NCBI GenBank assembly: GCA_026625165.1
Contig: CP112999.1
Coordinates: 1,550,001-1,614,000, forward strand
DNA length: 64,000 nt
Reading direction: 5' to 3'
Source of the DNA: Methanoregula sp.
GTDB lineage: Archaea > Halobacteriota > Methanomicrobia > Methanomicrobiales > Methanospirillaceae
A program made the position numbers and the translations under genes. Below the pieces are notes generated by a model. The model saw nothing but the letters and a program-made list of their open reading frames with translations, had not been told where the DNA came from and did no database searches. Below, piece after piece: positions 48,962-52,728 of the stretch (its first letter is position 1; every line of letters starts with the position of its first letter).

Positions 48962-49424
48962 ATTCACCCATATCAAAAGAGACCATGCACAGATGGTGGA
49001 CGTGACGGAAAAGGATGATGTCGTACGCGAGGCGGTGGCATCAGGCAGGATCTACCTGCGGGATGAAACGCTTCGTGCAATCCATGAAGGAAAAGTCGTG
49101 AAAGGCAACGTGCTTGCCACTGCCCGTGTTGCGGCGACGATTGCGATCAAGGATACCCCCCGCATCATCCCCATGTGCCATACGATTCCCATCGGCGCCA
49201 TCACGATTGATTTTGTTGAGGATGCCGGGTTCATTGAGGCGACAGTGCGGGTGAAGTCAATGGGAAAGACTGGGGTCGAGATGGAAGCGCTCACCGGGGT
49301 GTCTGTGGCATTGCTCACCATCTGGGACATGGTAAAATCGGCAGAGAAGGATAACAATGGGCAGTACCCTGTCACACGCATCGCAGAGATCCGCGTCCTT
49401 GAAAAACGCAAGGGCGGGAAGTAA
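48945..49424 (+). CDS. moaC: Cyclic pyranopterin monophosphate synthase
   Basis: GTG at 48945 (MKILVEFTHIKRDHAQ) overlaps nnr by 17 bases. The 159-residue enzyme carries DHAQMVDVTEKDD at the N-terminus, the active region IPMCHTIPIGAITIDF (about 78) and EMEALTGVSVALLTIWDM (about 110). It makes cPMP for molybdopterin/tungstopterin, needed for formylmethanofuran dehydrogenase in methanogens. It ends the nnr-moaC pair. Confidence 0.95.
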   Translation: MKILVEFTHIKRDHAQMVDVTEKDDVVREAVASGRIYLRDETLRAIHEGKVVKGNVLATARVAATIAIKDTPRIIPMCHTIPIGAITIDFVEDAGFIEATVRVKSMGKTGVEMEALTGVSVALLTIWDMVKSAEKDNNGQYPVTRIAEIRVLEKRKGGK

Positions 49425-49442: not shown

Positions 49443-49541
49443 TTTTATAACCCGCCGGCCATACTATTAAGGAACACGGGATCCGTCCCGTAAAAAAGGA
49501 ATGTAGCTTGGAGACAAGCCGAACCTTACAGGTGATATTAC
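49443..49541 (+). promoter_or_regulatory. Promoter and structured 5' leader of rpl15e
   Basis: TTTTATAA at 49443-49450 is a good TATA box. RNA starting near 49470 could fold into a three-way junction: closing helix TAAGG (49468-49472) with CCTTA (49524-49528); hairpin 1 ACGGGA-TCCG-TCCCGT (49476-49491); hairpin 2 GCTTG-GAGA-CAAGC (49506-49519) with a GNRA tetraloop. The ribosome binding site AGGTGAT follows directly. This could be an autoregulatory site for L15e. Confidence 0.55.
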
Positions 49542-50132
49542 ATGGTAAAATCAATGTATGCCTATGTCAGGGAGGCATGGAAGAGGCCTGACAAAAGCGA
49601 TGTGGATGCACTCCTCTGGGACCGGATGCAGGTCTGGCGTCGTGAGGGAAGCGTAGTCCGTGTCGAACACCCGACCCGGATCGACCGTGCTAGGGCACTC
49701 GGGTACCGCGCGAAACAGGGTATCGCCGTTGCGCGCGTGAAAGTCCGCAGGGGCGGTCGCCGGCGCTCGCGGTATGTCCGCGCCCGCCGTACCGCCCGTA
49801 TGGGCAAGAACCGGCTTACGCCTGCAAAGAGCCTTCAGCGCATTGCAGAGGAACGCGCATCCCGCAGGTTCCCGAACATGGAGGTGCTCAACTCCTACTG
49901 GGTCGGGCAGGACGGTAAGCTCAAATATTACGAGGTTATCCTTGTTGACGGGCACCACCCGGCGATAAAAAGCGACCGGAAGCTTGCATGGATCGGGGAA
50001 GCAACCCAAAGCGGGCGTGCCGAGCGCGGCAAGACTTCGGCGGGGCGCAGGGGACGCGGGATGGGCACCCGTGGTTCCGGGACGGAAAAGACCCGCCCCT
50101 CCATCCGCTCCCATGCAAACCAGGGCAAATAA
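49542..50132 (+). CDS. rpl15e: 50S ribosomal protein L15e
   Basis: A 196-residue very basic protein of full archaeal length. [35 protein letters not shown] and [16 protein letters not shown] are typical. It binds 23S rRNA in the large subunit. It begins the conserved operon rpl15e-rnp3-rnp2-psmA-sbds. A leader of about 70 bases with predicted structure precedes it. Confidence 0.96.
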
Positions 50133-50162: not shown

Positions 50163-50804
50163 ATGATGATCACCGACTCCTGTGTCTATCCCCGTCCGCT
50201 CGGAGATTCTTCGGTGAGGCGCATGGCTCTCGTTGCGCACGAGTTTGGTTTTGACAGCCTTGTTGCGGTCAATACCCCGCCGTGCAAACATTTCGGGGTT
50301 ACCGTGGAGACCGGCATCGTAATCGGAGAGATGCCGGCACCAGAAGTTACCCGCGAGGTAAAGCGCTCCAGGGAGACGGGGGCCATTGTATCCGTGATGG
50401 CAGGCGACAACGGGAGGAACCGCATGGTGCTTGGCATACGGGGTGTTGACATCCTCTGCGGGATTCACAAAACCGACCGGCACGCGTTCGACCATGTGAC
50501 CGCAAGGATGGCGGCGGATAACGGTGTTGCGGTCGACATCAGCCTTGAGCCGGTCATCCACGGGCGGGGGATGTCACGACAGAAGGCACTGGACCGGTAC
50601 CATGATATCCTGCTGCTGCACCGGAGGTTCGAATTCCCGCTTGTGCTCTCGACCCATGCAAGATCGGTGCTGGACATGCACCCGGTGCGGGAGTTTTCCG
50701 GTCTTGCATCGGTCATCGGGCTTGACCTTTCCGATGTAGAACAGGCGCTGTCCCATACAGGACAGATGCGATCTTTGCATTCCGCTGTCAGGGTGGTTAC
50801 ATGA
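50163..50804 (+). CDS. rnp3: RNase P protein component 3 (Rpp30)
   Basis: A 213-residue TIM-barrel-like protein. DSCVYPRPLGDSSVRRMAL at the start, VAHEFGFDSLVAV, and later LVLSTHARSVLDMHP match archaeal Rpp30. It joins the RNase P holoenzyme that cuts 5' leaders of tRNAs. Its stop overlaps the start of rnp2 by four bases, matching coupled synthesis of the partner pair. Confidence 0.94.
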   Translation: MMITDSCVYPRPLGDSSVRRMALVAHEFGFDSLVAVNTPPCKHFGVTVETGIVIGEMPAPEVTREVKRSRETGAIVSVMAGDNGRNRMVLGIRGVDILCGIHKTDRHAFDHVTARMAADNGVAVDISLEPVIHGRGMSRQKALDRYHDILLLHRRFEFPLVLSTHARSVLDMHPVREFSGLASVIGLDLSDVEQALSHTGQMRSLHSAVRVVT

Positions 50805-51295
50805 CGGCCAGGCCCCCCACGCTCCGGGAAAAGCGCCGGTATGTGCTTACCCGAATCGAGCCTGCCGGTACCGCTCCCGATCCAAAGGAAATGTACTATT
50901 CGGTATACGAAGCTGTGACATCCCTCTGGGGCGATGCAGCCGGTGCGCTGATACATGTGGCAGTGATCGCGGTTGAGGGGGATTATGTAATCGTGCGCTG
51001 CCGGAGGGGAGCCGAACGAGAGCTTGCAATAGCCCTCTCCACTGTTACTTCCTGCGGGGGGAAACGGGTGGCACTGCGCTCAGTTGCCGCATCCGGGACA
51101 ATCGAGAGCCTGCGTGAGCGGATTTCAGAATTTAAGGATAAAGCGCAGGTTCCAGGAGTGCCATCAGAATGCACGATCGACGGTATGGCCTTTTCGGTCT
51201 GCCATTGTGCAGGTCAGAAGATTGATGTGATTGAAAAGGGATTTAAAAATACAACACGATTCTTTTTGACAAGAGAGGATCTGGAGGATTCATAA
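50801..51295 (+). CDS. rnp2: RNase P protein component 2 (Pop5)
   Basis: A 164-residue protein with the alpha-beta Pop5 fold: [15 protein letters not shown] at the start, [17 protein letters not shown] and [13 protein letters not shown]. It forms a heterotetramer with Rpp30 in RNase P. The stop codon overlaps the psmA ATG by one base. The C-terminal third is longer than in some archaea. Confidence 0.94.
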
Positions 51296-52017
51296 TGCAA
51301 CCACAATACCAGATGGGATATGATCGGGCGATCACGGTTTTTTCACCCGATGGCAGGCTGTACCAGGTGGAATACGCGCGGGAAGCGGTAAAGCGGGGGA
51401 CGACCGCAGTCGGGATCAAGGCAAAGGACGGTGTCGTCCTGATCGTGGACAAGCGCGTAAGCAGCAAGCTGCTCGAACCCTCGTCGATAGAGAAAATTTT
51501 CAAGATTGATGAGCACATCGGCGTCGCCTCGTCCGGACTTGTCGGGGACGCCCGTGCACTGGTCGATCGGGCCCGTGTCGAGTGCCAGATAAACCGGGTC
51601 TCTTACGACGAACAGATCGGGGTCGAGACGCTCGCAAAGAAGCTCTGCGACCACATGCAGACCCTCACCCAGTACGGCGGCATCCGCCCGTACGGGACTG
51701 CGCTCCTGATCGCGGGCGTGAGTGACGGCGAGTGCCGGCTTTTCGAGACCGACCCCTCCGGCACCCTGCTCGAATACCGGGCGACCGGCATAGGGATCGG
51801 GCGGCCTGCGGCAATGAAGGTCTTTGAAGAAGAGTATACTCCGGAAATGGAAGTAAAAGATGTCATCCTCCTTGGCTTAAAGGCACTGCACTCCGCGACG
51901 GAGGGCAAGTTCGATGTCGACACGGTCGAGATCGGGGTTATTTCAAAGGATAATGCGGTGTTCCGCAAGATGACCAAGGAAGAAGTCGCAGGGTTTGTCG
52001 GGCAGTTCAAACAGTGA
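51295..52017 (+). CDS. psmA: Proteasome subunit alpha
   Basis: A 240-residue subunit. The alpha signature [22 protein letters not shown] covers the gate N-terminus. [20 protein letters not shown] and [17 protein letters not shown] are well conserved. It forms the outer rings of the 20S core and carries no N-terminal threonine. The position between rnp2 and sbds is conserved in Euryarchaeota. Confidence 0.97.
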
Positions 52018-52023
52018 CCGCAT

Positions 52024-52728
52024 ATGATCCCGCTGGAAAAATCAGTGGTAGCAAGGCTGGAAAGTTACGGGGAGCGCTTCGAGCTCCTCGTTGACCCGGA
52101 CCAGGCTGCAAAAGTGCGGCAGGGCGAAAAGATCGATATCGAGGAGGTTGTTGCCGCCCTCAATGTCTTTTCCAACGCATCGCGGGGCACCAGGGCGTCC
52201 GATGAGTCGCTCACCAAGGTCTTCCATACCACTGATTTTCCCGCGGTCGCCCACCGGATCATCGAGAAGGGCGAGATCCACCTTACCGCCGAACAGCGCC
52301 GGCACATGATCGATGAGAAACGCCGCCGGGTCATTACGTTCATTGCCCGCAACGCGGTTAACCCCCAGACAGGGCATCCACATCCGCCCCAGCGCATCGA
52401 GATGGCGATGGAGGAGGCACGGGTGAACATCGATCCCTTCAAGCACCTCGATGAGATGGTCAAGGAAACGGTCAAGGCGCTGCGCCCCATCCTCCCGATA
52501 CGGTTTGAGGAACTCCGGCTTGCGATCAAAATACCGGCTGATTTTGCTGCAAAAGCGTACGGCGATATTGCTGCTGCGTCCACCATGGAAAAAGACGAGT
52601 GGCAGAAGGATGGTTCATGGATCTGTGTCGTCAGGATCCCCGCCGGCATCCAGACCGAGTTTTACGACCTGATCAACAAGATCACCAAGGGCGAAGGGGT
52701 CGTCAAGATCCTCAATCAAGTATATTAA
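52024..52728 (+). CDS. sbds: Ribosome assembly factor SBDS
   Basis: A 234-residue protein. MIPLEKSVVARLESYGERFELLVDP opens the N-terminal SBDS domain; LTKVFHTTDFPAVAHRIIEKGE leads into helical domain 2; domain 3 includes IRFEELRLAIKIPADFAAKAYGDI. It helps mature the large subunit by acting with EF-2-like proteins. In many archaea rrp4 and exosome genes follow; here rpl37ae follows after 42 bases. Confidence 0.96.
   Translation: MIPLEKSVVARLESYGERFELLVDPDQAAKVRQGEKIDIEEVVAALNVFSNASRGTRASDESLTKVFHTTDFPAVAHRIIEKGEIHLTAEQRRHMIDEKRRRVITFIARNAVNPQTGHPHPPQRIEMAMEEARVNIDPFKHLDEMVKETVKALRPILPIRFEELRLAIKIPADFAAKAYGDIAAASTMEKDEWQKDGSWICVVRIPAGIQTEFYDLINKITKGEGVVKILNQVY

Follow-up and report, generated by a model that had tools for sequence, protein, structure and literature searches.

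In Methanoregula sp., the gene for ribosomal protein eL15 (L15e), rpl15e, is preceded by a TATA box, two hairpins and a Shine-Dalgarno sequence, and it is followed on the same strand by genes for two RNase P proteins, the proteasome alpha subunit and SBDS (Table 1). The window, which is the whole 64-kb stretch of DNA that was analysed, gave four matches when scanned against Rfam 15, namely three tRNAs and RF03144, the eL15-Euryarchaeota ribosomal protein leader. The RF03144 match covers the entire model at a score that in Methanoregula sp. is only slightly above the family cut-off, and its first stem corresponds to 49477-49490 of hairpin 1. The match lies in the 5' UTR of rpl15e, as it does in relatives, and ends 11 nt upstream of the ATG of the gene that carries PF00827; the TATA box suggests that the leader is transcribed. 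Further upstream, the end of the moaC gene contains a 38-nt segment (49381-49418) that is 84% identical to another site in the same genome (G000:C1:837092-837129).

Table 1. Features of the rpl15e leader and of the genes that follow it, in window coordinates
Feature	Position	Strand	Evidence or remark
TATA box TTTTATA, rpl15e promoter	49443-49449	+	sequence
UAAGG, proposed 5' strand of a helix closing both hairpins, judged outside the structure	49468-49472	+	pairs with CCUUA in 65.6% of cells
Hairpin 1, ACGGGA-UCCG-UCCCGU, perfect	49476-49491	+	95.4% of cells paired; 3 of 6 pairs changed on both sides
RF03144 match	49477-49530	+	34.9 bits, gathering score 33.7 bits; full model 1-48
AGG, 5' strand of the hairpin 2 basal stem	49497-49499	+	pairs with CCU 49524-49526 in 47 of 47; invariant
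AAUGUA (AAUGUR), internal loop, 5' side; likely binding site of eL15 (predicted)	49500-49505	+	AATGTR or GATGTR in 60 of 60 genomes
Hairpin 2 apical stem, GCUUG-GAGA-CAAGC	49506-49519	+	98.9% of cells paired; 3 of 4 counted pairs changed on both sides
CGAA (YGAA), internal loop, 3' side	49520-49523	+	invariant GAA after C or U
CCU, 3' strand of the hairpin 2 basal stem	49524-49526	+	invariant in the 47-sequence alignment
Shine-Dalgarno AGGUGA, 3 nt 3' of the basal stem	49530-49535	+	sequence
rpl15e, ribosomal protein eL15 (L15e)	49542-50132	+	ATG at 49542; Pfam PF00827 Ribosomal_L15e, E 2.5e-80
RNase P p30	50163-50804	+	Pfam
RNase P Rpp14/Pop5	50801-51295	+	Pfam
Proteasome alpha	51295-52017	+	Pfam
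SBDS	52024-52728	+	Pfam

Conservation of the leader among relatives

With the RF03144 model, the leader was found in 58 of 61 genomes (that of Methanoregula sp. included), 50 of them above the cut-off, and in 51 of 120 genomes sampled across the phylum. Methanosarcina acetivorans and Haloferax volcanii are among the carriers of the family. To avoid circularity, the DNA 5' of each of the relatives' eL15 genes was also read directly, independently of the model. All 60 genomes that have an eL15 gene carry the core AGG-AAUGUR ... YGAA-CCU upstream of rpl15e, five of them with a single A to G change such that the loop reads GAUGUR where the rest have AAUGUR; YGAACC is present in all 60. The direct reading recovered the core in two genomes missed by the model, G020 and G056.

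Several of the divergent leaders are informative in their own right. An insert of about 50 nt interrupts the loop of hairpin 2 upstream of rpl15e in G020 (L052) and leaves the core intact on both sides, which suggests that the apical loop of hairpin 2 may be dispensable. The leader of G056 (L087) keeps the core, has a long apical part and lacks a recognisable hairpin 1. In G008 (L040), hairpin 1 has a different sequence (GUAAGA-UGAG-UCUUAC) that still pairs, which is compensatory evidence, assessed by eye, from outside the alignment described below.

The rpl15e leader is real, strongly conserved and already known as a member of RF03144, and we identify it with high confidence as a euryarchaeal eL15 ribosomal-protein leader. 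The family was published in 2020 as a predicted leader by Eckert and Weinberg, who rated the eL15 motif 'Y' (PMC7247131), and it supplies the described case that a first-pass annotation of this DNA lacked. That annotation had nonetheless predicted a protein-binding leader for L15e, a prediction that is borne out to the extent that all relatives tested have the leader 5' of rpl15e and that its stems covary. The Methanoregula leader shares with RF03144 two consecutive stems, the basal stem, the AUGUR/YGAA internal loop and a site just 5' of rpl15e, and it differs in little more than an insertion of 5 nt between the two hairpins and its near-threshold score.

Fold and covariation

Covariation was assessed on an alignment of 47 sequences from which near-duplicates and six divergent or long-element sequences (G008, G020, G042, G047, G056 and G057) were omitted, the omission of these six slightly favouring hairpin 1. 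The two-hairpin fold is paired in 97.5% of the cells of this alignment, and 6 of its 13 pairs have changed on both sides. Its covariation score is 0.232 compared with 0.075 in shuffles, none of 500 shuffles reached 0.232, and when the fold was slid along the alignment the score did not exceed 0.082. Fold energy is less telling, since the 99-nt stretch folds no better than shuffled sequences (z -0.60; 54 of 200 shuffles fold as well), whereas the 54-nt core has a modest advantage (z -2.25; 4 of 200 as good). The decisive evidence for the leader is therefore conservation and covariation, not fold energy.

Both hairpins that the first-pass annotation described as perfect are present in the sequence, and when relatives were aligned, as it had proposed, both were conserved with compensatory changes, which was not so for the UAAGG/CCUUA helix that it placed around them. 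The loop of hairpin 1 is of the UNCG type in most relatives (UCCG, UGCG, UACG or UUCG) and is closed by an A-U pair. With AGG and CCU paired, hairpin 2 becomes a longer stem that bears the almost invariant asymmetric internal loop AAUGUR/YGAA. Its apical loop was correctly read as a GNRA tetraloop, GAGA, in Methanoregula sp., but GAAA, UUUU, CACC, UUCG and others occur among relatives, and since this loop is free to vary, the GNRA motif is incidental. The conserved information resides in the internal loop.

The basal stem AGG/CCU is paired in 100% of the cells of the alignment, comprises 3 bp or more in each of the 60 genomes and is paired in the Rfam model. Covariation is uninformative for these pairs because they never vary; the basal stem is a predicted helix, supported by this very lack of variation, by the Rfam model and by minimum-energy folding of 49468-49528.

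Promoter and ribosome binding site

The TATA box was already located by the first-pass annotation, and in most relatives the best TATA-like match begins 32-35 nt 5' of hairpin 1. Archaeal transcription usually starts about 26-27 nt from the centre of the box, and the start for rpl15e is predicted near 49472-49474. With this start, UAAGG would be mostly or wholly untranscribed, and the earlier proposal that the RNA begins with this sequence probably does not hold, as it lies at or before the predicted start. Also noted at first pass was that the structure stops just before the ribosome binding site, and this agrees with the position of the Shine-Dalgarno sequence here and with the occurrence of a similar sequence 0-4 nt 3' of CCU in most relatives. 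Within 49523-49533, ACCU and the AGGU of the Shine-Dalgarno sequence could form a 4-bp hairpin in Methanoregula sp.

Discussion

The most likely mechanism by which the leader acts is autogenous translational repression by eL15. The transcript would start a few bases 5' of hairpin 1 and the leader would fold into two consecutive hairpins, the second consisting of the basal AGG/CCU stem, the AAUGUR/YGAA internal loop and a variable apical stem. Free eL15 in excess of 23S rRNA may then bind the internal-loop stem and stabilize it beside the Shine-Dalgarno sequence, blocking the 30S subunit. Since the basal stem is only 3 nt from the Shine-Dalgarno sequence (0-4 nt in most relatives), a bound protein would cover the landing site of the ribosome, and we consider the repression step probable. 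Structured 5' UTRs that are thought to bind the ribosomal protein they encode are also known from the L1 leader of Methanococcus, whose structure and ligand are unrelated to those of the eL15 leader. The archaeal S15 and L4 leaders are likewise thought to bind their encoded proteins and to lower expression, again with unrelated structures and ligands (PMC7247131).

Eckert and Weinberg considered eL15 the likely ligand because rpl15e is the sole ribosomal gene downstream of the motif (PMC7247131). Our analysis shows where the leader lies, its conserved fold and its promoter geometry, whereas the ligand and the repression are inferred, as in their study, and so is the translational level of the block; our search of the literature found no binding or reporter experiment on the eL15 leader. 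An alternative is that the same structure exerts its control by way of mRNA stability, or by way of some cellular RNA-binding protein that is not eL15, given that gene neighbourhood is the only ground on which the ligand has been assigned and that 5'-terminal hairpins can protect mRNA. We regard this alternative as improbable, since the leader tracks rpl15e in every relative and the internal loop shows much stronger conservation than a hairpin serving only stability would require.

A different fold was proposed in the first-pass annotation, in which UAAGG pairs with CCUUA (49524-49528) to close a three-way junction around both hairpins. All five bases are complementary in Methanoregula sp. and its close relative G006, and in a few relatives altogether, and the inner A-U and G-C pairs can often form elsewhere. 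Of the outer pairs, however, one is broken in 24 of 36 sequences and the other in 26 of 47, and the innermost pair is broken in 18 of 47. Moreover, the junction would compete for CCU, which pairs with AGG at 49497-49499 in all sequences, one of its strands falls at the predicted start site or 5' of it, and minimum-energy folding of 49468-49528 selects another pairing. We therefore reject the three-way junction, which is very improbable on the pair counts and the promoter geometry. Because UAAGG and CCUUA are poorly paired and CCU is needed by the basal stem, the conserved structure, as read from the alignment, is two consecutive hairpins. Less likely still is a switch between two pairing partners of ACCU (49523-49526), the core and AGGU (49530-49533) of the Shine-Dalgarno sequence; the minimum-energy fold of the predicted transcript does contain the ACCU/AGGU mini-hairpin, but binding of eL15 would open the Shine-Dalgarno sequence, which is the wrong sign for feedback, and only 13 of 60 genomes allow a mini-hairpin with a loop of at least 3 nt, so we rejected it as not conserved.

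If repression by eL15 is the mechanism, it may be asked whether the internal loop imitates the protein's site on rRNA. The loop has been likened to a bulged-G module, and rRNA mimicry was called unclear (PMC7247131). Like that module (sarcin-ricin or loop E), the leader has GUR and GAA on the two sides of its internal loop, but it departs from the canonical AGUA/GAA in that U rather than A precedes the G and the last purine may be A or G. A match to the core was not found in the 23S rRNA of Methanoregula sp., where the best partial matches to the 5' strand carry 2-3 mismatches and structured searches gave 4 matches compared with 2.4 in shuffles, which is the level of chance. This 23S rRNA thus offers no clear copy of the core, and without one rRNA mimicry, the usual support for a ligand, is not established. 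A stretch resembling the core is presumably present in yeast 25S rRNA.

This analysis adds one member to a catalogued leader family and corrects the fold that had been proposed for it. In every one of the 60 genomes, gene coordinates place RNase P p30 directly behind rpl15e and on its strand, and because this gene is always found there, control of downstream genes by the leader is possible and could extend to the whole RNase P/proteasome operon. The stronger combination, in which the leader sets the whole rpl15e-RNase P-proteasome-SBDS run and eL15 recognises a fold that is no copy of its site on rRNA, seems unlikely. That the leader is always linked to a gene for RNase P nevertheless makes operon-wide control a testable side question, and if such control is real, it would tie the supply of ribosomes to RNA processing and to protein turnover.
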